From: a virus
Length of the DNA: 30,433 bases
Reading direction: 5' to 3' (one strand)
IMG/VR virus record: IMGVR_UViG_3300032288_001757
Span: 1 to 30,433 of that record
The notes under the pieces are model-generated. The model worked only from the letters and a program-made list of their open reading frames with translations, was not told the origin of the DNA and did not search any database. The translations under genes were made by a program, and so were the position numbers. This document shows positions 4,708-24,431 of the stretch, in pieces (the stretch's first letter is position 1; every line of letters begins with the position of its first letter).

Positions 4708-4905
4708 CTAATTAATAACATTTTTCTCAATAGCCAAGTAAAGGCTACCATCATTGTTGCCGCAAGATATATAAGCATAAGAACCACAAGATAATAAAAA
4801 TACCAAGTAATTTTTACCATCGTAGTGATCAACATCAACGCTTTTGATTGTTTTATTTTGTAGAAAATCGAAGAGGTCATCAATGGTTTCATGGGAAGTT
4901 TGCAT
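4708..4905 (-). CDS. Small hypothetical protein
   Basis: A 65-aa protein beginning MQTSHETIDDLFDFLQNKT, with a beta-rich middle (YLVFLLSCGSYAYISCGN). It overlaps the end of the GT9-like gene by 17 bases and lies 15 bases before the membrane-protein gene, which matches the spacing of this operon. A competing frame on the same strand (4689-4892) has a poorer composition and conflicts with the neighbour. No family is recognised. It does not look secreted. Confidence 0.6.
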   Translation of the reverse strand: MQTSHETIDDLFDFLQNKTIKSVDVDHYDGKNYLVFLLSCGSYAYISCGNNDGSLYLAIEKNVIN

Positions 4906-5332
4906 TTAAACTTTCAATCACTATTTCAGGATTAACAAATTTGTTTGCATCATGCTGTGTATCTTCCCACCATAAAAATTGATTTTCAACCAAATTACTT
5001 CTATCTTTTAGTAAATTTATATTTTCAGGGTGTCCAAAGATCAAAGGATCAGAAACCGACCATAGAACTATACCATATTTTTTACGATCCCATGCAAAAT
5101 GCTGAAAAAAAGAATCGCAACTTATCCATGTTTTGCATTGATCAACAAGCTTTCCTAACTCATCTAGTGATAAATTTTTTCTAAAATCATCAACTAATTG
5201 TTGTTCGCCTTCAATGCCAACTTGAACTATTGGTTCTTTAATCAGTCTAATTAGTTCCTTCCAATAAGGATAATTTTTAGCATTAGTCTTGCCACTTTTT
5301 AAAGCTTTAGAATATGGGCTAATGATAATCAT
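4889..5332 (-). CDS. GT9 (heptosyltransferase)-like C-terminal half
   Basis: A 147-aa protein that reads as the C-terminal, donor-binding domain of a family 9 glycosyltransferase. Visible pieces are ISPYSKALKSGK near the N-terminus, PIVQVGIEGEQQL (34-46), and WISCDSFFQHFAW (69-81) with D73, S74 and H78, which correspond to the D-S-G-x-x-H signature of ADP-heptose LPS heptosyltransferases; the glycine is replaced by Phe. The matching N-terminal half is the tail of the preceding gene, with which it overlaps by ATGA (5329-5332). The two may assemble into one enzyme. Sugar and acceptor are unknown. Confidence 0.68.
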   Translation of the reverse strand: MIIISPYSKALKSGKTNAKNYPYWKELIRLIKEPIVQVGIEGEQQLVDDFRKNLSLDELGKLVDQCKTWISCDSFFQHFAWDRKKYGIVLWSVSDPLIFGHPENINLLKDRSNLVENQFLWWEDTQHDANKFVNPEIVIESLNANFP

Positions 5333-6297
5333 AAATATAACTTTCTATAAGCATCTTCTAAACTACCTTTCCATTTCCATTGATACATTTTAATATAAAT
5401 ATTCCATGTATCGAGATCACCAAATAATGCATGAGCTTCAGCAATAGAACGACCAGGCACTATTTCAGGAAAGCAAGTAAATATTTCAGGATTTTTAATG
5501 TCGGGTAATACGCGTTTAAATATTATATGATCGCCCATACCGCCATTTAATATCACAATAGTTTTATCACTATAATTAATTAAATTATTAAATACAGTTT
5601 CATCTTGGCCATAAAGAATCTGATTGGTTTCACTTCTAATACCACCATTAGGATTTTTAAAATGCCAAGTATTAGCATTAGGAACGGCTAAAATTTTATA
5701 GCCTTTTTTAAATAGCCCATAAGTAAATAAAGTTTCTTCTCTATGTGCTACTCTTGAAAGTCCTAAATGATAATTATGCACGCCAGCACGATAAAGAAAA
5801 GAACAATGAAGATGCTCAACTTCTTTGACCTTATCAATAAATGACCATTGAATATTAGGCTCTCTATTAATAAGTTCTATTTTACCTGTCGGCTTTATCG
5901 CTTCCTGTTTAATGGGCGGCGTTAAAATTGCACCGCCTATTGCGCCTACATTTTTATGAGTATAATTAAAAAGATTTTGTAAAACATTAGGTTCAGGAAT
6001 AGCATCATCATCAACGCGCCACACCCAATCATAGCCCATTGTATTAGCCATTTGATGTATATAATGCTGACCTTTTTTATGCGCATAAACCCATTCCCAT
6101 TTAATGCCTTTGATTGATAGCATTTGAAAAAAATAGCTATACACCAATTCATTTCGCATATCTTGTGGTTCATCATTATCATCAAAAATAACTAACTTAT
6201 CGACCTTTTTTGTTTGATTAATAACGGCATTAAGCGTTAGAGGTAAAGTCGTATGATAACGACCGCGAGTTGCAATTGAGCATAAAACATTAGCCAC
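5329..6297 (-). CDS. GT2 glycosyltransferase fused to a GT9 N-terminal segment
   Basis: A 322-aa protein. Residues 1-240 form a family 2 glycosyltransferase: CSIATRGRY (6-14), KLVIFDDNDEP (34-44) for nucleotide binding, WRVDDDAIPEP (93-103) with the D96-D98 metal site, and AHREETLFTYGL (184-195). From about 245 a different unit begins, IVILNGGMGDHIIFKRVLPD, with the glycine-rich GMGD motif (253-256) that opens GT9 enzymes. It breaks off at the stop, and the rest of the GT9 appears in the next gene. It overlaps the methyltransferase gene by 8 bases. The enzyme is probably cytoplasmic and modifies virion protein or host glycan; the substrate is unknown. Confidence 0.82.
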   Translation of the reverse strand: MANVLCSIATRGRYHTTLPLTLNAVINQTKKVDKLVIFDDNDEPQDMRNELVYSYFFQMLSIKGIKWEWVYAHKKGQHYIHQMANTMGYDWVWRVDDDAIPEPNVLQNLFNYTHKNVGAIGGAILTPPIKQEAIKPTGKIELINREPNIQWSFIDKVKEVEHLHCSFLYRAGVHNYHLGLSRVAHREETLFTYGLFKKGYKILAVPNANTWHFKNPNGGIRSETNQILYGQDETVFNNLINYSDKTIVILNGGMGDHIIFKRVLPDIKNPEIFTCFPEIVPGRSIAEAHALFGDLDTWNIYIKMYQWKWKGSLEDAYRKLYL

Positions 6298-6919
6298 GAT
6301 CCCACCTCATAATCATAAGATTAAATTTATTGTTTTCATTAATTTCAGGTAAAGTTTCTGAAATAAATCCATGCTCATTAATATAATTGTATTGAAAATC
6401 GGGAAAGTGTGATTCGTTTAAGCCATGAAGTTTATGATGCTCACCCCAAAATCCTACAGGCTCATTATGTGGAGTGGTTAATAAAAGGCGTTTACAATGT
6501 TTCTTTAATTTTTGTGCTATTTCTAATCCATTATCAATATGCTCAATTAATTCAAAAGCAATAATAGTGTCATATTGAGCTAAAGGGTAGGTATTGATAT
6601 CAGCGTTTGTAAAAGATGCGTTTAAACCCCATTCCTGTTCGTTTGCAACCTCTATAATAATAGGATCATAATCTAAACCAAGATAATTAATGTCATTTGG
6701 AAGGAATTGTGATCCGTAACCTGTTGAGCAACCTATTTCAAGAATATTTTTACCTAATAGATTGCGGTTAGCCCAAAGATAACGAGTAGCTTCTCTAGGA
6801 AATACGGGATCGCCTTTAAGAAAAACCGCTCGCTCGTAATTATTTGTTAATAAAAATCTATAATAATTTTTATCATGTTGTTTAAAGTATGGTAACGCAT
6901 CTTGTATTGTTTTATCCAT
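6290..6919 (-). CDS. Class I SAM-dependent methyltransferase
   Basis: A 209-aa protein with a Rossmann methyltransferase core. Motif I is ILEIGCSTGYGSQFL (59-73). The acidic residue after strand 2 is D83 (YLGLDYDP). Motif IV-like IIAFELIEHIDNG follows, then LLLTTPHNEP. The acceptor cannot be told from the sequence. Members of this type with a trailing H-x-L-H-x-x-(N/S) helix (HHKLHGLNESHF) occur in glycan and lipid modification clusters. Standing between the fibre genes and two glycosyltransferase genes, it may cap or modify a sugar chain. No DNA methyltransferase motif such as DPPY is present. Confidence 0.85.
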   Translation of the reverse strand: MDKTIQDALPYFKQHDKNYYRFLLTNNYERAVFLKGDPVFPREATRYLWANRNLLGKNILEIGCSTGYGSQFLPNDINYLGLDYDPIIIEVANEQEWGLNASFTNADINTYPLAQYDTIIAFELIEHIDNGLEIAQKLKKHCKRLLLTTPHNEPVGFWGEHHKLHGLNESHFPDFQYNYINEHGFISETLPEINENNKFNLMIMRWDRG

Positions 6920-6930
6920 ATTATTCCATG

Positions 6931-7473
6931 TTATGTTGTTAATTGAGTTCGTTGTTGATAAATAGTATTTTCTGTAATTGTAAAATAACTATCACCTGAA
7001 TTGGCGGCAGTAGTGCCATTAAAAAATAAATCAACACTTCTATTACCACCCATTGAGCCAATATTTATAATACCAATTTCAACAACAAGTATATCACCAT
7101 TAACAAAAGATGTTGATGTAGGTGTTACTGAAGCTGTAACGACTGTTTCTGAAGTGCCTAATTCTACTGTAGCTGAAGCCTGCCCCAATGATGCACTTAA
7201 TGATCCAGCACTATATTTATAAATACGCATGCCTAAAGAAGCGTTTGCTTGTGCATTAGATTCTTGACCTCTTAAATTAAAAGATACCGAACCTGATAAA
7301 GTAAATGTCAATAGAGGTTTTGTGGCCCAATAACCTAAACTAATCCAAGTGCCACTTGCAATTGTAGTTCCTGAAGTAGTTGTAACACCCGTTCCTCTTT
7401 CAAGAGTTAAAACTCTATTTATTGTAGAAGATATACCTATATTTTTATTAGTTAAATAATATACAGTTGCCAT
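6931..7473 (-). CDS. Beta-rich virion/fibre-associated protein
   Basis: A 180-aa protein dominated by Ser, Thr, Gly and Val in alternating patterns (FTLSGSVSFNLRGQESNAQA, TVELGTSETVVTASVTPTS), as in jelly-roll or Ig-like folds. There is no signal peptide. It starts one base from the end of the collagen-like gene, so it is probably made with it. Likely a decoration or fibre-tip protein. The closing segment, SGDSYFTITENTIYQQ, looks like the last strand of a trimeric beta domain. The family is not recognised, so the role is inferred from composition and context. Confidence 0.68.
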   Translation of the reverse strand: MATVYYLTNKNIGISSTINRVLTLERGTGVTTTSGTTIASGTWISLGYWATKPLLTFTLSGSVSFNLRGQESNAQANASLGMRIYKYSAGSLSASLGQASATVELGTSETVVTASVTPTSTSFVNGDILVVEIGIINIGSMGGNRSVDLFFNGTTAANSGDSYFTITENTIYQQRTQLTT

Positions 7474-7474
7474 G

Positions 7475-10400
7475 TTAGAATTCTAATGTAACCGCTAAAG
7501 CTGGCACTGTGCCTGATACCGCAGTTATTTCCAACCAAACAAAAGAACCTGCGGGAATATTAGGATTAGCAAAGCTTGTAGTTGATGTGCCTGTGCTTAT
7601 GCTTGTTGTTGTAATTGCTGACGATGTTACCGCCGTTCCTGCCGCAGATTGATCAGAGCCATATTTAATATTAAATGATACGCTTGGCGTTGCTGATCCC
7701 AATGGAAGCACCGAAACAATTTTAGTTATAGTTCTAGCTAAAGTTGTATAAAATAAAGTAACATCAACATCGGCTGTAGTTGGATAATTTAATAATGATG
7801 ATTTAGGCCCCATTGCACCTACTTGGCCACTAAAACCACTTATACCTGAAAATCCTGATAATCCTTGCGCACCACTAAATCCACTAAATCCTGATACGCC
7901 TGATCCGCTAAATCCTGAATAGCCACTAATACCGCTACCACTAAATCCTGAATAACCGCTAAAGCCCGATTGACCAACATTAATACCAAAATAAGCAACT
8001 GATTGAACAATATCAGTCGTAACACAAGCGCCAATAGTAAATGAAGTGCCATTAGTTGCAGTTACATCACTTGCGGCTAATCTAGCACCATTACGATATA
8101 CATCTAAATAACCAACTGTATATGAAACAGTAAATGTAGTTTGTCCATTGGTTGGAGTAAAATCAGTAACAGTTCTAGTAGTTGATGTAGCATTAATTCC
8201 GCTATAACCACTGTAACCTGAAAAACCTGAAGTTCCAGCCCCGCTATAACCACTATAACCGCTAATTCCCGAACCTGAATAACCTGAATAGCCACTAATA
8301 CCACTAGCCCCATTCGTTCCATTAGTTCCTGAAAAACCACTAATTCCTGAAGCGCCCTGCGCTCCACTAAATCCGCTAATTCCTGAAACACCTTGTGCGC
8401 CACTAAATCCACTAATACCACTAAACCCTGAAATTCCTGATTGGCCTGCAATTCCAATATTCCAAGATGCAATAGTGCCTGATCCGCCAGTTGTATCCAC
8501 ATTGACTGTAAATGATGTCGTTGTATAAGCTGTAATTGCGCCTTCCATAAAATTAGATGGTGTTGCTGAAGATGCAACTCTTACTCGCAATCCAACCGCA
8601 AAAGCATTTGTGCCTTGTGATTGATTTACAGTAAATACTTTTGAACCTGTGCCAATAGTTGTTGAAGTTGTAGAAGTTAATCCAGCATAACCTAATCCAC
8701 TAAATCCTGATATGCCACTAGCACCACTAAACCCACTTATACCTGAAGCGCCTACAGCACCACTAAACCCACTTATACCTGAAGCTCCACTAAATCCACT
8801 AATACCACTTGCGCCATTCGTTCCATTCGTTCCTGAAATACCTGACCATCCACTAAAACCACTAATACCTGAAGCGCCTTGCGCACCACTAAACCCACTT
8901 ATACCTGAAGCTCCACTAAATCCACTAATACCTGAAGCGCCTTGCGCACCACTAAAACCACTAATACCTGACGCACCATTGATACCACTATAACCCGATA
9001 AACCTTGTGCGCCTGAATATCCACTATAACCACTTATACCGCTCGCACCTACAGCACCCGAATATCCACTAAACCCACTTATACCACTAGCGCCATTTGC
9101 GCCATTTATGCCTGAATAACCTGAATACCCACTTATGCCACTAGCGCCTACAGCACCGCTATAACCACTATAACCACTTATTCCACTAGCTCCATTAGTG
9201 CCACTAAAACCTGATATACCTGACGCACCATTGATACCGCTAAATCCTGACAATCCTTGAGCGCCTGAATATCCTGAATATCCTGACAATCCACTAACGC
9301 CTTGTGCGCCAGTAGCTCCACTATATCCGCTAAAACCACTTAAACCTTGCGCACCACTAAATCCTGATAAGCCACTAATGCCTTGCGCGCCACTATATCC
9401 GCTGTAACCGCTAATTCCTGACGCACCATTAGCACCGCTAAATCCGCTAATACCACTTGCACCATTAATGCCACTGTAACCTGATAAACCTTGTGCGCCA
9501 CTATAACCTGAATAGCCTGATATTCCTGATCCTGAATAGCCTGAATATCCACTTATACCTGAAGCTCCATTAGCTCCATTAATTCCTGAATATCCACTAT
9601 AACCACTAATGCCGCTTCCACTGTAACCTGAATATCCTGATATGCCACTAGCACCATTAGCTCCACTATATCCACTAATTCCACTAGCGCCATTAATACC
9701 GCTAAATCCTGATAACCCTTGTTGGCCTGAATATCCTGAATATCCACTATAGCCACTAATGCCAGCAATACCTTGAGCGCCACTATAACCACTTAATCCA
9801 CTAGCTCCTTGCGCGCCACTAAAGCCACTATAGCCTGAAAAGCCGCTATAGCCACTAAATCCTGACACACCATTAACAAGCGCAAAAACTAAATCATGGT
9901 TATTAGAAAAGCCTGTAGTTCCTGTGCCTACACTTGCAATTAAAGTTACAGGATATTCCCAATAAGAAGTAGAAGTGCCTGGATTATAATGAATAGGCGT
10001 GCCATTGATTTCCCAAGTTTGAGAATTAGCACTTGAAGTTTGATCTTGAATAATAAATTGTTCGGTTTGTTTTAATAACGCTAAATAAATATCAATATCA
10101 TCATTAGTTCTAGTAAAATGCGAAACAAAAATTGCAGTTGCACTTATTTGAGTTGCATTATTCCAAGATAAATAACCATTGCCTGGATAACCTGAAATGG
10201 ATGTTGTATTTGCATCATATTCAAAAAAGCTAGATGAAGCTCCAGGCGTGCCGCTATAACCACTAAATCCTGAATAACCTGATATGCCTGATGCGCCAAC
10301 TTGTCCGCTATATCCGCTAATGCCGCTAAAGCCACTAAAGCCACTTAAACCTGATGCGCCAACTTGTCCGCTAAAACCACTATAGCCTGATATACCGCTT

Positions 10401-11437
10401 GCACCATTTTGACCTGAATATCCACTAGCTCCATTAATACCGCTGTAACCACTAAATCCACTAATACCACTACCTGAATATCCTGAATAACCTGAATAGC
10501 CTGATATTCCTGACGCTCCGTTTGTGCCGTTAATGCCGCTATATCCACTATATCCTGAAATACCACTAGCGCCAGTAGCGCCCACTGCGCCGCTGTATCC
10601 TGATATTCCACTCCATCCTGAAATGCCACTAGCGCCATTTTGACCACTATATCCACTTAATCCATTTATACCTGAATAACCGCTTATGCCTTGTTGGCCG
10701 CTAAATCCACTATATCCACTAATTCCGCTTGCGCCTGTAGCACCGCTATAACCCGAAAGTCCACTAGCTCCATTAATTCCACTATAGCCACTAAATCCTG
10801 ATTGGCCAATTTGACCTGAATATCCACTGTAACCTGATATGCCACTACCTGAATATCCTGATATACCTGAATAACCTGAATAACCTGAATAACCGCTTAT
10901 ACCTGATCCTGAATAGCCTGATATGCCGCTATAACCTGAAAAACCACTTTGACCATTTATACCTGAATAGCCTGATATACCGCTATATCCGCTAATGCCA
11001 CTAAATCCACTTTGACCTTGTTGTCCACTATAACCGCTATAGCCTGATACTCCGCTACCACTATAGCCTGATTGTCCTTGAGCGCCGCTGTATCCTGAAT
11101 ATCCCGAATAACCTGAAATGCCTAATCCTGAAAATCCGCTTATACCTGAAAATCCACTTATTCCACTATAACCTGAAATACCTGAATAACCACTATATCC
11201 TGATTGACCACTTAAACCACTTGTGCCAATGCCACTATAACCACTAAATCCGCTGTAGCCCGAATATCCTGATAGTCCTGAAGCGCCTGTTACACCGCGA
11301 TCAACAACGACTGTCGTTGTAGGTGTAGGCGTTACTTCAACATTAAGCGTAGTGCCTTGAGATAGTGTTACATCGGTTGAATTAACTGATACGGCTACCT
11401 CATTTGATGGTGCTGGAGTGATTGATAATGTAGCCAT
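7475..11437 (-). CDS. Giant collagen-like fibre protein (Gly-X-Ser repeats)
   Basis: A 1320-aa protein. After a short beta-rich N-terminus (1-47) it consists of Gly-X-Y triplets, mostly G-Y-S, G-F-S, G-I-S and G-A-S, at about 48-395, 525-913, 1000-1080 and 1156-1208. Three non-collagen domains interrupt them (about 396-525, 913-1000, 1080-1156) and a beta-rich domain closes the protein (1209-1320). Proline is almost absent, so any triple helix would not rely on hydroxyproline. It probably forms trimeric flexible fibres on the virion, like other phage collagen-like proteins. The second interruption domain and the C-terminal domain are Thr/Ser-rich sandwiches. Repeat number is expected to vary between relatives. 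Confidence 0.88.
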   Translation of the reverse strand: MATLSITPAPSNEVAVSVNSTDVTLSQGTTLNVEVTPTPTTTVVVDRGVTGASGLSGYSGYSGFSGYSGIGTSGLSGQSGYSGYSGISGYSGISGFSGISGFSGLGISGYSGYSGYSGAQGQSGYSGSGVSGYSGYSGQQGQSGFSGISGYSGISGYSGINGQSGFSGYSGISGYSGSGISGYSGYSGYSGISGYSGSGISGYSGYSGQIGQSGFSGYSGINGASGLSGYSGATGASGISGYSGFSGQQGISGYSGINGLSGYSGQNGASGISGWSGISGYSGAVGATGASGISGYSGYSGINGTNGASGISGYSGYSGYSGSGISGFSGYSGINGASGYSGQNGASGISGYSGFSGQVGASGLSGFSGFSGISGYSGQVGASGISGYSGFSGYSGTPGASSSFFEYDANTTSISGYPGNGYLSWNNATQISATAIFVSHFTRTNDDIDIYLALLKQTEQFIIQDQTSSANSQTWEINGTPIHYNPGTSTSYWEYPVTLIASVGTGTTGFSNNHDLVFALVNGVSGFSGYSGFSGYSGFSGAQGASGLSGYSGAQGIAGISGYSGYSGYSGQQGLSGFSGINGASGISGYSGANGASGISGYSGYSGSGISGYSGYSGINGANGASGISGYSGYSGSGISGYSGYSGAQGLSGYSGINGASGISGFSGANGASGISGYSGYSGAQGISGLSGFSGAQGLSGFSGYSGATGAQGVSGLSGYSGYSGAQGLSGFSGINGASGISGFSGTNGASGISGYSGYSGAVGASGISGYSGYSGINGANGASGISGFSGYSGAVGASGISGYSGYSGAQGLSGYSGINGASGISGFSGAQGASGISGFSGASGISGFSGAQGASGISGFSGWSGISGTNGTNGASGISGFSGASGISGFSGAVGASGISGFSGASGISGFSGLGYAGLTSTTSTTIGTGSKVFTVNQSQGTNAFAVGLRVRVASSATPSNFMEGAITAYTTTSFTVNVDTTGGSGTIASWNIGIAGQSGISGFSGISGFSGAQGVSGISGFSGAQGASGISGFSGTNGTNGASGISGYSGYSGSGISGYSGYSGAGTSGFSGYSGYSGINATSTTRTVTDFTPTNGQTTFTVSYTVGYLDVYRNGARLAASDVTATNGTSFTIGACVTTDIVQSVAYFGINVGQSGFSGYSGFSGSGISGYSGFSGSGVSGFSGFSGAQGLSGFSGISGFSGQVGAMGPKSSLLNYPTTADVDVTLFYTTLARTITKIVSVLPLGSATPSVSFNIKYGSDQSAAGTAVTSSAITTTSISTGTSTTSFANPNIPAGSFVWLEITAVSGTVPALAVTLEF
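7815..11310 (-). repeat. Collagen-coding short repeat tracts
   Basis: DNA tracts of 9-bp units encoding G-(Y/F/I/A)-S triplets lie at about 10250-11310, 8700-9865, 8205-8440 and 7815-7970, with larger repeated blocks coding for NGASGISGYSG and AQGASGISGFSG. Synonymous Gly and Ser codons alternate, so long exact repeats are limited. Recombination between units could change fibre length. Confidence 0.85.
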
Positions 11438-11438
11438 A

Positions 11439-11918
11439 TTAATTTATTACGCCATCTGAACGAACCAAGAATAATAAGAATATGATTGAATCCTGCGCTG
11501 GCGTTGATCCAACGGCAGGGAATGATATTTTAATACGACCTGAAAAACCTACGCAATTTTCAGCATTAATATCTAATTGCGGATCGGATGCTATAACACC
11601 CCATGATCCTTCATCAATCACTAAAGTAAATGTGCCTGCGGCATCATCTCGATTGGTAATAGTAAGAGGAACGGCTGAAGGCGGCGGAGTATAGTCTGCA
11701 ATATCAAAAGTAAGGCCATAACGACTATCGCGAATATTGCTTACTTGTCTACGAATAATAGAAGCTGAAATAGTAGCGCCTGTTAAATCAACAGGAAGAT
11801 CATTGGAAGTGAATACAAGATTCCAATAAGTTTGTTGATTATAAACTAACTCACCAGCAATAATTGGATTGTCAAAACCGCTTACTTGCGCAAGGGTATT
11901 TTTGTTAAAGATAGCCAT
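11439..11918 (-). CDS. Putative tail/baseplate appendage protein
   Basis: A 159-aa protein. The stretch AGELVYNQQTYWNLVFTSND (21-40), VDLTGATISASIIRR and the later GTFTLVIDEG and GRIKISF segments give an Ig-like beta-sandwich appearance, resembling N-terminal domains of phage appendage or upper-baseplate proteins that anchor fibres. It has a good GAGGAAAAC ribosome site. It directly precedes the collagen-like gene (1 base apart), so it may be the adaptor by which that fibre is attached. No enzyme motif is seen. Family assignment is tentative. Confidence 0.62.
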   Translation of the reverse strand: MAIFNKNTLAQVSGFDNPIIAGELVYNQQTYWNLVFTSNDLPVDLTGATISASIIRRQVSNIRDSRYGLTFDIADYTPPPSAVPLTITNRDDAAGTFTLVIDEGSWGVIASDPQLDINAENCVGFSGRIKISFPAVGSTPAQDSIIFLLFLVRSDGVIN

Positions 11919-12002: not shown

Positions 12003-13145
12003 CTATTTAAAATAATCACCAACCATCCATGTAACAATAGAATATCTTATACCTTTTGTTACAGGCTCAACCCCATGTGGCATAAATGATGGGAATACTA
12101 TAACTGTGCCAGGTGTTTGTTGAGGATATAATCTTTGATGGCTATTTTGTATATAAAATTTACCGCCTTCAAAATCATCATTTAAAAATGCTAATACAGT
12201 TAATTTTCTAGTTTCGTTTGAATGTTGATGAAAAGTATCAACATGAGTTTCATATTTGCCATGTATGTCATACATTAAAAATTCTGATTGATTTGAATGC
12301 GTAATATGATATTGCCATACTTGATGATTAACTTGTAAGCCAATAGCAGTTAATGTAGCACCTATGCCTGCAAATATAGGTAATTGTAATCTTTGAACAT
12401 TACGAATATCTAAATTTATATTTTTTTCTAAATCTCGACCATTACCAATAAAAGGAAGTTCTTTTTCTACTTCAGGTTTTGCATATTCCTCAATGAGTTT
12501 TTTACAAAACCCTTCAGAAATTGCATTATCAACTTTATAACAATCATCAAAATTTTGATTTTGAATAGTTTTGCTTAATCCTAATGATTCTCGTTTATCA
12601 TATTTCCATTCAGCATAAGGGCCATTTTGATCTACATAATGCAAAAATACTTGAGCTTGCCATTGTCCTTCAATATAAGGTTCTCGCCAATGCCATTTAT
12701 CGCAACCGCGATACATAACGGCATCGCCAATTTCCATATCTATTTTACTTACATTAACTGTTTTATCTTCATTATCGCCCATATAAATAGGCCATATATC
12801 ACCTTTAAAACCTAATGTAATTGTGGCAGATATTTCACAAGCTGGTCTATCTCTATGATTTTTTAATTCCTCGCCTTGTTGATTATAAAGACGAGCATAA
12901 GAATAAGTAGGATATAATTTTAAACCTGATTGTTGCTCAAAATAAGGAAGCATAGCTTCAAGTAAATTATCAAATATTTGAGCGCCATGCACCGCTTCAG
13001 ATAATGGGCATTGCTTATCTTTTATTGTCTTTTTTAATTTTACTAATTCTTTTAATTCATTAGTTAATATTTCACAATATTGTTTATCAAGTGAATTTTT
13101 AAGATAAACATATCCATCATTTTTAAAATTTTCTTGTATTGTCAT
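12003..13145 (-). CDS. Tandem double 2-oxoglutarate/Fe(II) oxygenase
   Basis: A 380-aa protein with two double-stranded beta-helix oxygenase domains. The first has NHRDRP with H97 and D99, then KWHWREP with H152 and R154. The second has THVDTFH with H301 and D303, then MPHGVEP with H357 and R367 (GIRYS). Each set gives a plausible H-x-D...H iron triad with an arginine for 2-oxoglutarate. The second domain is of the prolyl-4-hydroxylase type (ND-D-FEGGKF, GTVIVFPSFMPHGV). Such enzymes are common in phages of aquatic bacteria, with unproven substrates. It is placed between two fibre genes. It could hydroxylate a virion protein or alter host metabolism. Confidence 0.88.
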   Translation of the reverse strand: MTIQENFKNDGYVYLKNSLDKQYCEILTNELKELVKLKKTIKDKQCPLSEAVHGAQIFDNLLEAMLPYFEQQSGLKLYPTYSYARLYNQQGEELKNHRDRPACEISATITLGFKGDIWPIYMGDNEDKTVNVSKIDMEIGDAVMYRGCDKWHWREPYIEGQWQAQVFLHYVDQNGPYAEWKYDKRESLGLSKTIQNQNFDDCYKVDNAISEGFCKKLIEEYAKPEVEKELPFIGNGRDLEKNINLDIRNVQRLQLPIFAGIGATLTAIGLQVNHQVWQYHITHSNQSEFLMYDIHGKYETHVDTFHQHSNETRKLTVLAFLNDDFEGGKFYIQNSHQRLYPQQTPGTVIVFPSFMPHGVEPVTKGIRYSIVTWMVGDYFK

Positions 13146-14246: not shown

Positions 14247-17200
14247 TTATGCCGCCCCTGCGCGAGCGTATGTTTGTTGTAATAAAATTGTTGTATTATT
14301 ATTGTAAGCAGTTGTTAAAACATAATTGTTTGTGCCTTCAGTATAATCAACGCCTGATCTTAATAAAGTTCCATTTGCATATATATTTAATGCGCTAGGT
14401 GTAAATGGGAACGAATAAGTAAATTGCCCATTCACTGTAAATGTAATGACATTTTGCGGTGTGCCTGTAGGCGTTGTTAAATTATTGGCGCTAAACTGTA
14501 TTATAACTAATCTTCCTGTAGTTGTGCTAGGAAAATTTGTAATAGAATTATTTATAACATCAAAGTCTTGCTCATTAACAACTGCGCCATTAATAAATGG
14601 TAATTCATATCCTGAATGAAAGCCCCATGTTGTAGGCGTGTATATTGTAGCGTTAGTTAAATCTGCTTCCCAACGGCTAAAAACAGGATAACTTGATCCT
14701 GAAGCCCTGTAAGTATAAATTTTATTACCAATAGATGCCGTTATAGCACCTGTAAATGTAATAGTGCGAGTGCCATAATTAACTGTAGAAACTGTGTAAG
14801 TAGTTGGTGTGCCTGTATTGCTAAATGTTAATAAATCACCTGCTCTAATTAATTGTTGCGGCATTTGAGCTATATCCCAAACAATACTTGATGCACCTAC
14901 AGTTGAAACTGTCAATTGAGTAGGATCGTAATAATTGCCGCTTGATGTAGCTCTAAATGAAATAATAATAATCACATCATTTAAAGTAACGCCTGTGCCA
15001 AAAGTAACTGTGCCTGTAGCGCCACTTGTATCTGTATATAAAGATTCATTTTGCAATAAGCCGTTTCTAAATACTAAACATTGATCTTTAATATAAGATG
15101 ATGCTCTAGTTACTGTAAATACAGTTTGGCCTGAAGTAGCTGTAAATGTGGCAATAGTCATAAAGAAACTATCAGGGCTAGTAAATCCAACAACTCGCCC
15201 ATAAATATCAACTGTTATTGTTGCGGCTGATCCTGTAAATGTAGGTGCGCCACCAAAATCTAAAAATTGATCTAAAGATGCAATAAGTCTGCCATCATTT
15301 GTATTATTAATGGCTACTTGACCTGTGCCAACTGTAGTCGTTCCTGTCGATATAACTTGGCCTGTAGGTTGATCTAAATCAATAATGTTTGGATTTAAAC
15401 CATTTGGATCAAGCGCTGACCATATTGTAGGATTAAATTGTATAGCAGTTGTAGGGACAAAAGCACCTGTGCCTGCGGCGTATGCGGCAAAATCTGTATC
15501 AAAACTAAATTTACGGCTTTGACGATTAGCATAAGCTAAATAAACATTTGTGCTAAAAGCAGGATCAGCTAAATACCAATTATATAAAGCAGGATTAGTT
15601 GACGCAGTAGTTCCTGATTGATTACATAATCCAAAATAAAGTCTGTTAGTAGGGCTAAAACTAAAGTTACTTGTGCCTGTTATATTATCTGCATAAGCTA
15701 CAGCAAGATATTTGTCTGTGTATTGAAATGTTCTTGGTCGCCATATAAGTTTTGCTGAAGCTAAAGAATAATTACTTGAAGCTAAACTATTAACCATTCT
15801 TACAAAGAAATACCAATCACCCGCAGGAATATCAAATAATTGAACATCAGGCATAGCAATATTATTTGTATAAGGATTGCCATTAGCATTAACCGCAGTA
15901 GTTCCTGCAAATATATATTGACTTGATGTTGGAAATTGAAAAGCAGAATACCATACTTCAGCATATTGAATAATGCCAGCGCTAGATGATGTAATATTAA
16001 CTATAAATGATGGATTGGCAATATTAGAAAAAGTAGTTCCAATAATAGGCGCTGGAACTGTGCCAAAAATTGTTGGGCTTGACAATCCTGTATTTGGTGA
16101 TTCCTCAAACGCAGTAATATTTTTATCATCATAAACTGTAGGATTAAATTCAGATAAACTTAATGCGGCAGTTACTTGACCTGAATCGCTAATCTTTTCA
16201 GTAACTTTCATTATTCTAAATAATTTAGCCACCCATCCATAATTAGCATTAGTTATTGTAACAATGTCGCCCGCTTCTAATTGTAAGCCTATATAGTTAA
16301 TTTCGCATTGAACTTGAAGATCATCTCTAACGGCTTCTAAAAGCCTATTTGTAATATATTGAGCTTGAACATTATTATTTGTTAATGGTAAAGAAATAGA
16401 TTGTTTATTAACAGGCTCATTAGGATAAAGTAATTCAGGCTTAATAACAGAAAGATCATAAGTTACGGAAGCAAAAGAATCAACTTGCGTGCCATCAGGA
16501 AATTTAGTTTCAACAATATTAAATGCATTAGAAGTATCAATCGGCGTTACTTGAATAGTTGAAATTAAATTACTATTATTAATATTCATAGCTACTGTAT
16601 AAATAGGCGTTTGAGTAACAATAGACCAAAGACTTAATATTTCATTGTAACGAACTAAACAATCAGAGCAATTAGCCATATACTGAACATTGCTCATAAT
16701 TTTATTGTTAGTATCTATTACACCATTAAATTCAAATCTTTTAATAGTTTCAGTTAATCCTGAATAAGTTTTATAACTAATTAATTGATCAGAATAAGTA
16801 TTAAGTGTTGTTAATGATGCTGTATCAATTTGACTTATTGGAATAGCGGCTCCATAACGAGTGGAAGTAAAATAATCTAAAAAGCAATCACCTGGTTTTT
16901 TTCTAGCATTTATAATTTGAAATCTTAATTGTTGAAGTGCAGTAATATTTTTATCTGCATTGTATTTAATATGAACTATTGCAAAAGCGCAATTAGTCAT
17001 TAATTTATCTTTATCCCATTTGTAAATTAAATTAGAAGCTTGCATAACTTGAATAGCATTAAAAGAACTATTAGTTTGACTATATGATCCATTTCTATAT
17101 AAATAAATATCTATATATCCTGAAACATCTTGAATATAACCTGTGCTTTCATCTTGAAGGCCTGTTACTTTATAAGTTTGACCAGGTGTAATGCTAAATA

Positions 17201-17654
17201 TACAAAGTTTTCCAGCATAATAAATTTTGCCAAAAGTAATCGTATCAGGCGTGCCACCTGTTTCAGTATTAGTTACTTCACATAATGATATTACATAATA
17301 TAAATCTTGATTATCAGTTGAAATAGAAAGGTCTGTAATAATGCCGCCTGTATATGCAGTTCCATAAATAACAGGAAGTTTATTATCGCCTGCGGCTGGT
17401 AGTGTTGTTGGATTGCCTGGATTTTTTTCAGTTACGGAAGTTGAATTAGGTAAATTTGGTGCAAAAACTTTTGATATAACTGAAGATATAACCATGTTAA
17501 TACCAAAACCAATGACAGCGGTTGCTACAGTGCCAAGCCCCAAAGCTCCAGCTATTACACTAGCAATAATAGAACCTGCCGCATAAGAAGGCTCGCTTAA
17601 TATATAAAACAATAAGCAGTTAATAATAAAAATTATTATTTTCATTGCATCCAA
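14247..17654 (-). CDS. J-like central tail hub / host-specificity protein
   Basis: A 1135-aa protein in the lambda gpJ position. The N-terminus is hydrophobic (IIIFIINCLLFYIL, then SEPSYAAG) like a signal peptide, followed by a Gly-rich hydrophobic segment (GALGLGTVATAVIGFGINMV) typical of J-like hubs. The hub core continues through LPVIYGTAYTGG and GDIVTITNANYGW (about residue 470). After 530 come fibronectin-like and fibre-like beta domains, including two QTxFTV...FRNG/YANG modules (about 830-903 and 1066-1135). It should close the tail tip and bind the host receptor. It overlaps the GNAT gene by 13 bases. A second ATG three codons in (17645) is also possible. Confidence 0.87.
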   Translation of the reverse strand: MDAMKIIIFIINCLLFYILSEPSYAAGSIIASVIAGALGLGTVATAVIGFGINMVISSVISKVFAPNLPNSTSVTEKNPGNPTTLPAAGDNKLPVIYGTAYTGGIITDLSISTDNQDLYYVISLCEVTNTETGGTPDTITFGKIYYAGKLCIFSITPGQTYKVTGLQDESTGYIQDVSGYIDIYLYRNGSYSQTNSSFNAIQVMQASNLIYKWDKDKLMTNCAFAIVHIKYNADKNITALQQLRFQIINARKKPGDCFLDYFTSTRYGAAIPISQIDTASLTTLNTYSDQLISYKTYSGLTETIKRFEFNGVIDTNNKIMSNVQYMANCSDCLVRYNEILSLWSIVTQTPIYTVAMNINNSNLISTIQVTPIDTSNAFNIVETKFPDGTQVDSFASVTYDLSVIKPELLYPNEPVNKQSISLPLTNNNVQAQYITNRLLEAVRDDLQVQCEINYIGLQLEAGDIVTITNANYGWVAKLFRIMKVTEKISDSGQVTAALSLSEFNPTVYDDKNITAFEESPNTGLSSPTIFGTVPAPIIGTTFSNIANPSFIVNITSSSAGIIQYAEVWYSAFQFPTSSQYIFAGTTAVNANGNPYTNNIAMPDVQLFDIPAGDWYFFVRMVNSLASSNYSLASAKLIWRPRTFQYTDKYLAVAYADNITGTSNFSFSPTNRLYFGLCNQSGTTASTNPALYNWYLADPAFSTNVYLAYANRQSRKFSFDTDFAAYAAGTGAFVPTTAIQFNPTIWSALDPNGLNPNIIDLDQPTGQVISTGTTTVGTGQVAINNTNDGRLIASLDQFLDFGGAPTFTGSAATITVDIYGRVVGFTSPDSFFMTIATFTATSGQTVFTVTRASSYIKDQCLVFRNGLLQNESLYTDTSGATGTVTFGTGVTLNDVIIIISFRATSSGNYYDPTQLTVSTVGASSIVWDIAQMPQQLIRAGDLLTFSNTGTPTTYTVSTVNYGTRTITFTGAITASIGNKIYTYRASGSSYPVFSRWEADLTNATIYTPTTWGFHSGYELPFINGAVVNEQDFDVINNSITNFPSTTTGRLVIIQFSANNLTTPTGTPQNVITFTVNGQFTYSFPFTPSALNIYANGTLLRSGVDYTEGTNNYVLTTAYNNNTTILLQQTYARAGAA

Positions 17655-18076
17655 TTTTCTTCAATTTTATTAAAACCAAATCTTGAATAATTAATATCAG
17701 GGCTTGTAATCATTTTTGTTATAGTAAAAAGTTTAATTCTACCTTTTGCTTTTAATTCTTTAGCGTAATCAATATAAGCTTTTAATAATTTATACCCTAT
17801 TGTTTTATGTCTATATTCAGGTTTTACATACCAAGCTAATTCATACATAGCTAAAGTTTGATCGCACCATATGATAGGACTTATAAATCCCATAATAAAA
17901 CCTATATTATCTTCTATAAATATAACGCCTTGACCTGCTATTATTCCATTAACTAACTTGTTAAAGTATTCAGGATTATCTATATCTTTGTATTGCTGAA
18001 TAGGGCTTTCATCCCTAAACATTCTCATCATTTCTGTTAATTGTGTAATATCATATTTTGTGGCTTGTCTTATCAT
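17642..18076 (-). CDS. GNAT-family N-acetyltransferase
   Basis: A 144-aa protein starting MIRQATKYDITQLTEMMRMF. The start at 18076 is preferred over a start 28 codons upstream because it gives an ATGA overlap with the preceding stop (18073-18076) and a normal GNAT N-terminus. The core GFIMGFISP, ELAWYVKPEYRHKTIGYKLL and the C-terminal YSRFGFNKIEENW follow the GNAT order; the acetyl-CoA loop (R/Q-x-x-G-x-G/A) is seen as RHKTIGYKLL. It lies between tail-tip genes where lambda has K. It may acetylate a virion or host protein. The substrate is unknown. Confidence 0.85.
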   Translation of the reverse strand: MIRQATKYDITQLTEMMRMFRDESPIQQYKDIDNPEYFNKLVNGIIAGQGVIFIEDNIGFIMGFISPIIWCDQTLAMYELAWYVKPEYRHKTIGYKLLKAYIDYAKELKAKGRIKLFTITKMITSPDINYSRFGFNKIEENWMQ

Positions 18077-18822
18077 TGTGTTTTTCCGAATGGATAATTT
18101 ATACTTGTAATAAAAGGAACTCTTAACATTGATGTGTCTGTAGGCGCAAAAAACTTCCATGCATTATCATTAGTAAATCTTCCAGCCGTTCTATTTTGTA
18201 AAATAATTTGAATGCTAGACGCTGAAATAGAGATAACACCTACATACATTCTAATTTCTTCCATCCATTGCTCTGATATACCATAAGAATTTACATAGCC
18301 TGTAAAAAACTTATATAAGCCGCCTGTGCCACCTGTTGTTATTAATGCGCCATTAGTATTAAAAAATCCATGCCACATTTCAATTAATGATCCTTTAGCA
18401 TTAAGACTTAATATCCATCCTAATAAAGCGGTATCAATACCCACAATAGTAATTGTGGTTTCATTAGCGGTTGATTTAATATCTCGTATTACATCATTAA
18501 TTTTTACTAATGTGCCTAAAGCATTAAATGGTTGAGCATCAACGGCTGGAATAGTTAATTCGGAAGGTGCAGTAGAGAAACGATAAATAAGAGCTTCAGT
18601 AGCATAACCATTGCCACCTGCTATGCCTGTAGCTACAAAAGAAACGCCTACAGTATTGGATGAAGCGCCGACTGAAGTCCAATCAGTCGTTCCTACTTTT
18701 TTAATAGTATATGTAACGCCAATAACAAGATCACCTGCTAAAACATTTTGTAGCGTAGTGATACGGACAAAGTCCGCCATTCTTATATTATTGGTATTAT
18801 CGACAGGCGTTATAACATTCAT
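18073..18822 (-). CDS. Tail tip protein (minor tail, L-position)
   Basis: A 249-aa protein, between the M-position tail gene and GNAT/J. An inserted module (GDLVIGVTYTIKKVGTTDWT, SVGASSNTVGVSFVATG) is a small beta repeat seen in other phage tail proteins. The body resembles tail-tip/hub-wedge proteins, ending NAWKFFAPTDTSMLRVPFI and NYPFGKTQ. No cysteine cluster is present, so unlike lambda gpL it cannot hold an iron-sulfur cluster. It overlaps its upstream neighbour by ATGA (18819-18822). Confidence 0.72.
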   Translation of the reverse strand: MNVITPVDNTNNIRMADFVRITTLQNVLAGDLVIGVTYTIKKVGTTDWTSVGASSNTVGVSFVATGIAGGNGYATEALIYRFSTAPSELTIPAVDAQPFNALGTLVKINDVIRDIKSTANETTITIVGIDTALLGWILSLNAKGSLIEMWHGFFNTNGALITTGGTGGLYKFFTGYVNSYGISEQWMEEIRMYVGVISISASSIQIILQNRTAGRFTNDNAWKFFAPTDTSMLRVPFITSINYPFGKTQ

Positions 18823-21307: not shown

Positions 21308-21616
21308 TTACTTACCTTTAAATCTATCTATTTTAAAGTCAGGCGCTTGGCTCATAAATGTAAGTAAAGAATCGCTAGGATCAGTTTTTTCTATACCATA
21401 AATATAATCGTAAGCGCTACCTAAAACGCTTTTTAGAGTATAGGGTGAAGTATTGTTGGCTCTTAAATAATTGAAAACTCCCGATGTGAGAGTTCCTTGC
21501 ATAGTTAATAAGCTTCTATTTCCAATCAACCCATCAGCAAACATGACTGTTATTTCATTCATGGTTGCTTCATCTAAAGCGTCTATATCTTGTATTGTAT
21601 GCCCGTTAAAGACCAT
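21308..21616 (-). CDS. Tail assembly chaperone, T-like part (probable frameshift product)
   Basis: A 102-aa frame from the ATG at 21616, directly before the tape measure gene. The frame stays open upstream to 21667, overlapping the end of the preceding gene in the -1 frame, and the extra residues (KVASSLRTQVRAAMVFNG) look like continuous protein. The ATG has no good ribosome site. It is therefore probably made as the C-terminal part of a G-T fusion, as in lambda. The fusion would bind the tape measure while the G part recruits tube subunits. Confidence 0.72.
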   Translation of the reverse strand: MVFNGHTIQDIDALDEATMNEITVMFADGLIGNRSLLTMQGTLTSGVFNYLRANNTSPYTLKSVLGSAYDYIYGIEKTDPSDSLLTFMSQAPDFKIDRFKGK

Positions 21617-21648
21617 AGCCGCTCTAACTTGAGTTCTTAACGAGCTTG

Positions 21649-22119
21649 CTACTTTGACTTTATGTCTTTATAGTCAGGGCTAATAACCTCGTTAATTTTT
21701 TCCACTAATGTCATTTGAACTGACAATGGAAATTCAGCTTCTACATCTTCATAAGTTATATCTTCTAATGATCCTGTTTCAGGTATTAGAAATTTTATAT
21801 ATTCAACTATTCTATGTTGCAATACATGTTTATTTGTAGCAGTTTCTCTTATTGATCTGCCTTCAATAATCATGTCGTTATCTTTAACTTCTACGCCTTC
21901 TTTGTCTTTAAGGCTTTCAAATTCTTTGAGCATATTTTGATATTCAAGCTCAATTTTTTCTTGATTAGGATTTTTAAAGTAATTATAAATAGCTTCTATT
22001 TCTGCTACGCTTGGAACTCTTACTTTAAATGTATGATCACCTAATACAAACGATCTAGTTAATACCGATAATCTATTTTCCTCGTATTTTTTACCAAGTG
22101 CTGATCCTAATTTGCTCAT
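21649..22119 (-). CDS. Tail assembly chaperone, G-like
   Basis: A 156-aa acidic protein in the lambda G position, two genes before the tape measure. It begins MSKLGSALGKKYEENRLSVL and has FVLGDHTFKVRVPSVAEIEA (25-44), the pattern of phage tail assembly chaperones. The C-terminal end contains two A-AAG tetramers (at about 21658-21661 and 21652-21655) just before the stop, where a -1 shift would join it to the downstream frame. It should keep the tape measure soluble until tube polymerisation. Confidence 0.75.
   Translation of the reverse strand: MSKLGSALGKKYEENRLSVLTRSFVLGDHTFKVRVPSVAEIEAIYNYFKNPNQEKIELEYQNMLKEFESLKDKEGVEVKDNDMIIEGRSIRETATNKHVLQHRIVEYIKFLIPETGSLEDITYEDVEAEFPLSVQMTLVEKINEVISPDYKDIKSK
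21652..21667 (-). promoter_or_regulatory. Candidate -1 ribosomal frameshift region
   Basis: The zero frame (ATA AAG TCA AAG TAG) and the downstream -1 frame are both open between 21667 and 21649. Two A-AAG motifs allow the Lys tRNA to slip back to AAA. The P-site codons (ATA, TCA) fit poorly after the shift, so this is not a perfect X-XXY-YYZ heptamer. Confidence 0.45.
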
Positions 22120-22128
22120 ATCTTTTCC

Positions 22129-22683
22129 TTATGTTGTTAATTTTTTAGCTTTATATGCATCCATTTTTTGTTTAATTAAAATGCCTAATCTTGCTGATAC
22201 AGCTTGCGCTTGTGATTCTAAAGATGTGCGCATAAATGGTTGGGCTGACATTTTGGCCGTTCCAAACTCATTAGCAATAGCTCTAGCATCATGCATGACG
22301 CCAGCTTCATTATAAAACTTTCTTTTGGCCTTTTTATATTCACTACCTTTTAAAGTTCCATATTGCGCATGGAATTGTTGCTTTAATTTTTTTGGAATTG
22401 GTCGAGATGAAACAAGCGATATAACAGAATCTTTTGGAGTTACATATCTTGACTTCATATCTTTTCTAGTAGGTCGCCTTGCGGTGATATACAAAGAACG
22501 ATCCAATGCGCCTGTGTCTTTAGGTGATAATGCTTTAGCCATAGCCAAAACAGGTTGCATAGCTTCTCTAACAGCTGGTATTAATACTTTACTTTTTCCG
22601 TCTTTATCGCCAAATTGCTCTTGAAATTCTTTAAAAGCATCAAGAGTTTCTTTTAAACCATTGACGGCAAATTTAACACTCAT
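22129..22683 (-). CDS. HK97 gp10-like neck/tail completion protein
   Basis: A 184-aa basic protein. The start MSVKFAVNGLKETLDAFKEF and the segment PAVREAMQPVLAMAKALSPKDTGAL (37-61) followed by a C-terminal EFGTAKMSAQPFMRTSLES are the pattern of the HK97-gp10 family (G-x-L-x-x-S ... G-x-P-F-M-R). These proteins act at the head-tail joint or tail terminator. Here the gene lies after the tail tube gene rather than in the neck block, a displaced order. It is separated by nine bases from the G-like chaperone gene and ends the small-gene group. Confidence 0.85.
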   Translation of the reverse strand: MSVKFAVNGLKETLDAFKEFQEQFGDKDGKSKVLIPAVREAMQPVLAMAKALSPKDTGALDRSLYITARRPTRKDMKSRYVTPKDSVISLVSSRPIPKKLKQQFHAQYGTLKGSEYKKAKRKFYNEAGVMHDARAIANEFGTAKMSAQPFMRTSLESQAQAVSARLGILIKQKMDAYKAKKLTT

Positions 22684-22910
22684 TATTCTGCCTTAATAAT
22701 TTTTTGATAGATCGTATTATTAAGTTTAATAGCGTAATCAACGGCTTGTTCGGGTGTCATTTTGTCCGCATGATTTTTAGCAATATCATGGGCCAAAGCA
22801 ATACCTGTTAATCGTTGTTGAGCAAAACCAAACCAATTCTTTTGACCTGAATTGGCTTGGCTTACTAAATAACTTAATAGATCATCGCTATTCTTGATTT
22901 GTGTCGTCAT
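22683..22910 (-). CDS. Small tail-region protein, hypothetical
   Basis: A 75-aa helical protein (DDLLSYLVSQANSG, NWFGFAQQRLTGIALAHDIA, MTPEQAVDYAIKLNNTIYQK). Its start lies within the end of the preceding gene (23-base overlap) and its end touches the gp10-like gene. It has no signal or membrane segment. It lies between tail tube and chaperone genes, where small assembly factors are common. I do not recognise a family. Confidence 0.7.
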   Translation of the reverse strand: MTTQIKNSDDLLSYLVSQANSGQKNWFGFAQQRLTGIALAHDIAKNHADKMTPEQAVDYAIKLNNTIYQKIIKAE

Positions 22911-23112
22911 TGTGTTTTACCTTTTCTTTTTTTGTGTTTTCATAAGGATTAACTTTTGCTAGCGCCTGTAAAGCAACATATTCTGCGCTATCAGGATTAG
23001 CTTTTGCTAAAGCATCAGCAACTTCTTTTGCATCAACAGGCAAACCCAAAGCTACTGTATCAAGGCTTTGATAGGTGCTAGTTAATATTTCAATAGCTTC
23101 AGATAATTTCAT
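22888..23112 (-). CDS. Small tail-region protein, hypothetical
   Basis: A 74-aa protein following the tail tube gene. The N-terminus is helical (MKLSEAIEILTSTYQSLD), the middle is alanine-rich (KEVADALAKANPDSAEYVAL) and the C-terminus is highly charged (TKKEKVKHNDDTNQE). It may be a tail-tube assembly helper. It overlaps the next gene by 23 bases in another frame. No family is recognised. Confidence 0.7.
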   Translation of the reverse strand: MKLSEAIEILTSTYQSLDTVALGLPVDAKEVADALAKANPDSAEYVALQALAKVNPYENTKKEKVKHNDDTNQE

Positions 23113-23125
23113 TTTTTAATCCTTA

Positions 23126-23620: not shown

Positions 23621-23654
23621 AATTTATTTCCTCACATTAAAAAATTAAAAATTC

Positions 23655-24077: not shown

Positions 24078-24078
24078 A

Positions 24079-24423: not shown

Positions 24424-24431
24424 TTATATTC

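Follow-up and report, generated by a model that had tools for sequence, protein, structure and literature searches.

A Gly-X-Ser collagen-like protein, the proposed tail fibre of a lambda-like phage, and its linkage to a sugar-enzyme cassette

Collagen stability is classically attributed to proline, hydroxyproline and, in bacteria, charge pairs. Natural collagens also contain one-residue interruptions, and in mimivirus the modification of collagen proceeds via lysine hydroxylation. Mimivirus collagen is described as being modified by the virus itself, through hydroxylation and glycosylation, and BclA-type bacterial collagens as collagen-like proteins which carry sugars (PMC8968730). In Gram-positive collagens, Thr makes up 48% of Y positions and Pro 31% of X positions, according to the same account. 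Phage collagens are exemplified by EPclA and EPclB, side-tail-fibre proteins of E. coli O157:H7 prophages, in which collagen is combined with globular domains; they are reported to be high in X-position Pro, to have 22% charged residues and, as recombinant proteins, to be unglycosylated (PMC3368898). Protein enzymes which add sugar to Ser include the autotransporter heptosyltransferases TibC and AAH, of which TibC is described as placing heptose onto Ser, not Thr (PMC4358343). These are single-protein enzymes acting on autotransporter adhesins; the TibC/BAHT family is defined by a TibC N-terminal domain and a GT9 domain in one protein.

The window analysed here (30,433 nucleotides; positions 1 to 30,433 of IMG/VR record IMGVR_UViG_3300032288_001757) comes from a lambda-like relative of Methylophilaceae phage P19250A (KX815270). 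Its collagen-like gene (Table 1) has a syntenic homologue in that phage, P19250A_0023, which encodes 1,201 aa of the same composition (281 triplets, Y = Ser in 225 of 281, 4 Pro in the tracts) and carries the annotation 'tail length tape-measure protein'. In both phages the gene is followed by the same three cassette genes. As in EPclA/EPclB, collagen tracts and globular domains are combined in one protein. The gene follows that of the tail tip within the late tail module, as expected of a tail fibre, and PHROG tail-fibre matches were found for its product.

Table 1. Features of the fibre locus; coordinates refer to the window
Feature	Coordinates	Strand	Remarks
GT9 C-domain-like protein, cassette gene 3	4889..5332	-	147 aa; Glyco_transf_9 18.5 bits, below cut-off 22
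GT2 glycosyltransferase, cassette gene 2	5329..6297	-	Glycos_transf_2 29.7 bits, cut-off 23.3
SAM methyltransferase, cassette gene 1	6290..6919	-	Pfam Methyltransf_23 43 bits, cut-off 27
180-aa protein directly downstream of fibre	6931..7473	-	between fibre and cassette; absent from P19250A
Gly-X-Ser collagen-like protein, proposed tail fibre	7475..11437	-	1,320 aa
C-terminal part, proposed host-binding tip	7478..7801	-	residues 1213-1320; unconserved in syntenic relatives
Gly-X-Ser tract 4	7802..7975	-	residues 1155-1212
Globular domain D3	7976..8191	-	residues 1083-1154
Gly-X-Ser tract 3	8192..8455	-	residues 995-1082
Globular domain D2	8456..8689	-	residues 917-994
Gly-X-Ser tract 2	8690..9871	-	residues 523-916
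Globular domain D1	9872..10234	-	residues 402-522
Gly-X-Ser tract 1	10235..11296	-	residues 48-401
N-terminal part, proposed attachment end	11297..11437	-	residues 1-47; kept in closest relatives
159-aa protein directly upstream of fibre	11439..11918	-	95.6% identical to P19250A_0022
2OG-Fe(II) oxygenase	12003..13145	-	next upstream after the 159-aa gene; outside conserved set
Tail-tip protein	14247..17654	-	P19250A homologue annotated host specificity protein J

The open reading frame runs from an ATG start to a stop codon with no internal stops. Open reading frames of 66-157 aa in other frames of the repeat were dismissed as mechanical, since the conserved protein sits in a single unbroken frame. 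An initial annotation had described a nearly proline-free collagen-like protein with Ser-rich Y and aromatic or aliphatic X positions, and the counts bear this out. Counting only runs of at least 4 triplets, there are 286 Gly-X-Y triplets across the four tracts. Ser occupies Y in 217 of these, and X is chiefly Tyr, Ala, Ile or Phe; the commonest triplets are GYS (73), GIS (43), GFS (41) and GAS (32). Pro occupies 2 of the 572 X/Y positions, and charged residues only 1 (a single Lys); 16 of the 18 Pro in the whole protein lie outside the counted triplets. The protein therefore nearly lacks both the imino-acid and the bacterial charged-residue helix stabilisers looked for in a collagen-like protein, in contrast to EPclA/EPclB, and its Ser-rich Y and nearly Pro-free X positions also differ from those of the Gram-positive collagens. 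The long stretches with Gly as every third residue are nevertheless collagen-like: the longest such run is 93 triplets, whereas shuffling the protein 2,000 times gave no run above 11. The tracts are interrupted nine times by a step that is one residue short, of the form G-S-G-(I/V)-S-G. Each of the four commonest triplets is encoded by 11-17 different DNA 9-mers, so the repeat is maintained in the protein and did not arise recently as a repeat of DNA. The protein matches Pfam PF01391 with 355 bits (cut-off 27.2); since its Pfam and PDB sequence matches are driven mostly by Gly periodicity, they are no proof of a triple helix. The initial annotation had suggested that such tracts might adopt a distinct kind of triple helix or another fold.

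All four tracts and three globular domains of the initial annotation are present, but the terminal parts (residues 1-47 and 1213-1320) had been omitted from it. These ends are modular. Among nine relatives compared, the N-terminal part is 89-96% identical in L020, L012 and L098 and 29-54% identical in the other six. The C-terminal part is only 24-27% identical in the first three; that of P19250A_0023 also differs (27% over 99 residues), and among survey collagen ORFs this part was matched in 2, including the identical L009. A conserved attachment end and an exchanged, variable tip fit a tail fibre. D1 has matches in 31 survey collagen ORFs. Its AlphaFold2 model has a mean pLDDT of 95.9 and gave 45 BFVD matches but no PDB matches at E <= 0.001; the matches found are viral proteins only, mostly named collagen or tail fibre. 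Relatives of D3 occur in the tail fibre of a Roseobacter phage and in S-SKS1.

Family searches with the 180-aa protein gave no matches. The 2OG-Fe(II) oxygenase was considered as a fibre hydroxylase and dropped. It is present in L011, L013, L026 and L049 but absent from P19250A and L010, and distant relatives are found in 354 phage records, mostly cyanophages; hence it is not tied to the fibre.

The cassette downstream of the fibre consists of a methyltransferase, a GT2 glycosyltransferase and a GT9-like half-enzyme. Genes 1 and 2 overlap by 8 bases, genes 2 and 3 by 4. In other phages the methyltransferase is fused behind an additional GT2 domain, and GT2 and GT9 parts are fused in L086; fusions and overlaps together indicate that the cassette is one unit. 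D96-D98 and E187-E188 are invariant in the GT2 family alignment, and the GT2 protein has a C-terminal extension resembling a GT9 N-domain. Other Glyco_transf_9 scores fall on both sides of the cut-off of 22 (31.7 bits for the fused relative L086, 14.7 for L125), and a profile for gene 3 matches heptosyltransferase I with E 0.022. Sequence searches of PDB with the GT2 protein and its family matched nothing informative. AlphaFold2 modelled L086 with partial confidence (mean pLDDT 70.7) and the top 50 Foldseek matches of this model reflect its GT-A part, so the GT9 half is unconfirmed by fold. The highest-ranking PDB matches given by Foldseek for the GT2 part include Ser/Thr polypeptide GalNAc-transferases, but chondroitin polymerase and hyaluronan synthase rank equally high, and the GalNAc-transferase matches could stem from the general GT-A fold. 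Whereas TibC and AAH are single proteins, the window has a GT2 enzyme, a split GT9-like enzyme and a methyltransferase; the TibC N-terminal domain was unmatched in these cassette proteins, which thus fall outside the TibC/BAHT family. Among scanned proteins it was matched only in L317, a cassette-less locus where a GT4-GT9 protein with this domain adjoins a Gly-X-Ser collagen.

Gly-X-Ser (GXS) collagens are a discrete phage class, common in viral contigs. In the survey, 75 of 349 loci were excluded for want of a collagen ORF of at least 15 triplets, loci sharing their last 40 residues were counted once, and those with <2.5 kb downstream were dropped from flanked counts (GXS 111 to 44; proline-type, or GPX, 109 to 53). 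Of the 44 distinct flanked GXS loci, 22 have the cassette no more than 2.6 kb downstream, versus 0/53 GPX, 0/11 other and 0/5 Gly-rich loci; these counts are taken over related sequences, and P values on them would overstate. When every locus that supplied the collagen query or an HMM seed is removed, the figures are 19/40 GXS versus 0/52 GPX. Nowhere in the available DNA of 109 distinct GPX loci was the cassette found. In the reverse search, by GT2 family alone, 54 loci had 2.5 kb or more of upstream DNA, and 51 of them carry a GXS collagen; two of the rest have no collagen, one is Gly-rich only and none is GPX. A further 26 of 80 GT2 loci, with <2.5 kb upstream, were set aside (11 GXS, 13 none, 1 GPX of 8 triplets, 1 Gly-rich). 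As in O-glycosylation systems, dedicated glycosyltransferase genes are linked to the gene of their putative substrate. The enzymes seen with proline-type collagens are 2OG oxygenases, and PLOD- or GT25-type glycosyltransferases once each.

At 14 of the 44 flanked GXS loci, the available DNA contains none of the cassette genes. Their median Ser fraction is no lower (0.89 versus 0.84), so Y-position Ser is independent of a cassette found nearby, a point against the cassette as the reason for the serines. Among 50,697 phage records the GT2 gene was found in P19250A only. The cassette also occurs in phages that have no homologue of the window's portal, which was matched in 3 of 34 cassette-carrying records searched, many of them fragments; a tail-sheath search gave one weak match and none above cut-off. 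Single-linkage grouping by shared neighbour genes was useless for counting phage lineages, as it yielded one 84-locus cluster. The Gly-X-Ser fibre is not a one-off, being of a class common in viral contigs and also present in a cultured phage, P19250A. No account of phage collagens of the Gly-X-Ser type, or of sugars on them, turned up in a literature search covering few subscription journals.

The protein is probably a long, collagen-like tail fibre of a siphophage, a trimer in which the phage cassette O-glycosylates the Y-position serines; the sugars would stabilise and shield the shaft. Collagen-like segments joined by small beta domains would form the shaft, with the N-terminus anchoring the fibre on the tail and the exchangeable C-terminal end making contact with the host, presumably a freshwater methylotroph by analogy with P19250A. 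The GT2/GT9/methyltransferase cassette would draw nucleotide sugars from the host and put O-linked sugars on the serines. Stabilisation by sugar is proposed because the tracts are nearly without proline or charged residues. The initial annotation's view of Ser hydroxyls as open to glycosylation gains genetic support from the reciprocal linkage with glycosyltransferase and methyltransferase genes, from which we infer the modification itself. A bolder reading, which we offer tentatively and with some doubt, is a third collagen chemistry in phages of freshwater bacteria, in which sugars that the viral cassette adds to Y-position Ser and methylates replace hydroxyproline in triple helices nearly free of proline and charge. 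GXS and Gly-Pro collagens would then have evolved side by side in viruses, as separate lineages with modification enzymes of their own.

The cassette could instead act elsewhere, on DNA or on host surface glycans (in superinfection exclusion or receptor change), and be linked to the fibre through a shared host-range region. Phage glycosyltransferases are described in serotype conversion and DNA modification (PMC12619734), and collagen-like genes are reported in a variable genome island of freshwater phages, with a suspected role in host recognition (PMC10202952). Cassette action elsewhere is unlikely, as proline-type collagens do not have the cassette in the available DNA at any of their 109 distinct loci and the link is seen in both search directions. 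That link would be left unexplained if the shaft were an unmodified, weakly stable triple helix which works at lake temperatures because the globular domains serve as clamps and trimerisation points. Several clamp-like domains do break up the tracts, and additive host-guest values of ~25 per triplet are low (the median for GPX phage collagens is 35.5) but perhaps enough in the cold. EPclA is reported to be trimeric and stable without glycosylation, but its authors ascribe this to much X-position Pro and many charges (PMC3368898), both nearly missing here; we give an unmodified helix about the same low probability as cassette action elsewhere.

The least probable reading is that the tracts form another Gly-rich structure (e.g. 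a polyglycine-II-like bundle), or are flexible. By host-guest values, aromatic or beta-branched X residues with Ser in Y are indeed ill suited to collagen. However, the period of exactly three persists for hundreds of residues without turns, the one-residue interruptions resemble those of natural collagens, and D1 is common to viral proteins named collagen.

A widespread viral class with hundreds of exact triplets and nearly no proline or charge makes other stabilisers of the triple helix testable. The linked cassette is a concrete candidate answer, and cultured P19250A is suited to examining it. If the serines are glycosylated, such fibres could protect virions or help them to bind their hosts, and the cassette would offer a means of adding sugars to repeat proteins. 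What is new here is that the cassette link is specific to the Gly-X-Ser type, which suggests a collagen held and coated by sugars.

In the virus record (30,433 bases), the minus strand runs from the terminase end through the portal, the head protease and two major-head-protein-like genes to connectors, tape measure, tail-tip protein and a 280-aa Gly-rich tail-fibre-like protein (PHROG and Pfam). A 2OG-Fe(II) oxygenase and a 159-aa protein come last before the Gly-X-Ser ORF, which is followed by a 180-aa protein and then by a methyltransferase (MT), a GT2 glycosyltransferase and a 147-aa protein that matches GT9 weakly; these last three are here called the cassette. The initial annotation described a 1,320-aa, almost proline-free protein built on Gly-X-Ser, and ORF, triplet and composition counts confirm this. 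The protein is collagen-like by periodicity, with a putative triple-helical fold, but in composition it fails the imino/charge test for collagens. By position and modularity it is a putative tail fibre.

Coordinates of features in the window and in surveyed loci
Locus	Position	Strand	Feature
Window	7475-11437	-	Gly-X-Ser collagen-like protein
Window	12003-13145	-	2OG-Fe(II) oxygenase
Window	17642-18160	-	GNAT acetyltransferase, within the tail operon, flanked by two tail genes
Window	25101-26156	-	match to major head protein family phrog_10
Window	26226-27569	-	match to major head protein family phrog_10, adjacent to the preceding
L020 (KX815270)	21390-24995		P19250A_0023, annotated as tail length tape-measure protein
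L317	2019-4364	+	GT4-GT9 fusion, 781 aa, with TibC N-domain, near a Gly-X-Ser collagen
L134	9156-11316	-	three consecutive LamG/ConA-like lectin genes directly downstream of a Gly-X-Ser collagen
L031	6896-10093	+	1,065-aa protein containing 19 stretches of RCC1 repeats, encoded downstream of a Gly-X-Ser collagen
L036	3323-5691	+	radical SAM-methyltransferase fusion and nucleotide-sugar epimerase behind a Gly-X-Ser collagen

The N-terminal half of the oxygenase matches PHROG families named 'ferrochelatase', and phage genes annotated 'ferrochelatase' also match it; the name looks wrong for this gene because its Pfam match is an oxygenase.

Methylophilaceae phage P19250A was reached through both the collagen protein and its 159-aa neighbour in a search of 50,697 phage records. 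Its gene 0023 is syntenic and encodes 1,201 aa with 281 triplets, 225 of which have Ser at Y; homologues of all three cassette genes come directly after it. Despite the annotation of gene 0023, the tape measure of P19250A is likely gene 0015, which lies in the usual place. P19250A likewise has two genes at the major-head-protein place, the first annotated as capsid protein. A search of IMG/VR with the collagen protein gave 11 loci. One of these (L009) encodes a protein 100% identical to that of the window, and two (L017 and L019) carry a collagen of Thr type, not Ser type, and none of the cassette genes.

Three of the nine relatives compared share the first 47 residues at 89-96% identity, and in these three the ends past the final tract do not exceed 27% identity. 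The most shared of the globular domains between the tracts is D1, which is matched in 31 of the collagen ORFs surveyed, against eight each for D2 and D3 and two for the C-terminal part. A conserved N-terminus, a divergent end and shared globular parts fit a tail fibre whose parts can be exchanged. D1 is predicted with high confidence (pLDDT 95.9) to form a small domain of mostly beta structure. It has no match in the PDB at E <= 0.001; the majority of its 45 BFVD matches, from phages and giant viruses, are named 'Collagen triple helix repeat'. It may serve as a clamp or in trimerisation.

Gly-X-Ser collagens are a class and not an oddity. At least 120 IMG/VR matches were found with each of three patterns: G-(Y/F)-S, G-P-X and a composition-free pattern of nine in-step Gly codons. 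The last contributed 98 new loci (10 Gly-X-Ser, 23 proline-type, 34 other, 6 Gly-rich and 25 with none of these), and across 67 of its loci the share of Ser at Y has two peaks: below 0.1 in 50, 0.6-0.9 in nine and between these in eight. The mean triplet value, computed from host-guest numbers, is 25.3 in the window, and its median is 24.1 in 118 Gly-X-Ser loci versus 35.5 in 109 proline-type loci. Charged residues have a median share of 0.019 in the former and 0.103 in the latter. Both known stabilisers are therefore scarce in this class.

The cassette follows collagen type. Profile searches seeded with the three enzymes of the window and close relatives covered all ORFs of 349 loci; in 274 of these, a collagen ORF reaches 15 triplets or more. 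Counting distinct loci, a cassette gene is present anywhere in the locus DNA in 49/111 Gly-X-Ser, 0/109 proline-type, 0/41 other and 0/6 Gly-rich loci. Where at least 2.5 kb of downstream DNA is available, a cassette gene lies within 2.6 kb downstream on the same strand in 22/44, 0/53, 0/11 and 0/5, respectively. Removal of all collagen-query loci and HMM seeds leaves 19/40 Gly-X-Ser versus 0/52 proline-type loci (Fisher P 6e-9, an overstatement because the sequences are related). The Gly-X-Ser set was collected by the G-(Y/F)-S pattern and is so biased to aromatic X. When the 123 downstream proteins of 53 proline-type loci were run against Pfam, 25 of the 60 families matched, which may share members, included the oxygenases 2OG-FeII_Oxy_3 (6) and 2OG-FeII_Oxy_5 (2) and the glycosyltransferases Glycos_transf_1 (2), Glycos_transf_2 (2), GT_PLOD (1) and Glyco_transf_25 (1). 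Proline-type collagens therefore have other, scattered enzymes. The 2OG oxygenases and single PLOD-/GT25-type glycosyltransferases after proline-type phage collagens possibly represent a collagen hydroxylation route in phages.

The same linkage is found starting from the enzyme. The GT2 alignment alone was searched in IMG/VR; 577 of the best 600 stretches code for relatives, of which the 80 closest to the window GT2 were retained. Gly-X-Ser collagen is present in the locus DNA of 62 of these 80. Upstream DNA reaches 2.5 kb or more in 54 of them; in this subset a Gly-X-Ser collagen is present in 51, a Gly-rich ORF in one, neither in two, and a proline-type ORF in none. For comparison, a Gly-X-Ser ORF occurs in 2/109 proline-type loci. 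Genomes of 84,980 species yielded only three loci, all on MAG contigs: one with the whole cassette and a Gly-X-Ser collagen (L435), one with cassette genes and no collagen within its 4.6 kb (L434), and one with two cassette genes and no collagen in its DNA (L436). Among cultured phages, GT2 was found at E <= 1e-5 only in P19250A. The cassette is therefore essentially viral.

The gene contexts make the fibre the probable target of the cassette. The collagen seen beside the cassette is nearly always of Ser type. The window's portal is matched in just 3/34 cassette records, many of which are fragments, and one match is at 20% identity; the cassette also occurs at loci without the 159-aa gene in their upstream DNA. 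Against the fibre as target, 14 of the 44 flanked Gly-X-Ser loci have no cassette gene, and their Ser share is no lower (0.89 vs 0.84). With at least 4.5 kb downstream, a cassette gene is present in 21/28 Gly-X-Ser loci. In 25 of the 32 Pfam families matched by the 32 downstream proteins of the 14 cassette-less loci, there is one Glycos_transf_1 and one Glyco_transf_9, both from the fusion at L317. In favour of the fibre, the fusion at L317, a Gly-X-Ser locus without the cassette, has a TibC N-domain, and TibC substrates are modified on Ser and not on Thr (PMC4358343). Glycosylated virions as such are known in mycobacteriophages (work cited in PMC12619734).

In the GT2 alignment, D96-D97-D98 and E187-E188 are invariant, as expected for a GT-A enzyme. 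A G-(L/M)-G-D-H motif in the final third is reminiscent of the GT9 N-domain; the 147-aa protein weakly matches GT9 C-domains. GT2 and the 147-aa part form a single chain at L086 and L125, with GT9 scores of 31.7 bits (above the cut-off of 22) and 14.7 bits (below it). Separate MT genes encode a protein of about 420 aa in 23/43 cases, and the three of these proteins scanned (L038, L096 and L066) are GT2-MT fusions. The GT2 and 147-aa genes overlap by exactly 4 bases in 34/38 close pairs, and MT and GT2 by 8 bases in 25/39. Because of these fusions and overlaps, we read the cassette as one pathway that would make a short, methylated glycan. The earlier proposal that the Ser residues of the tracts are open to glycosylation gains strong, if indirect, support from the cassette linkage found both ways.
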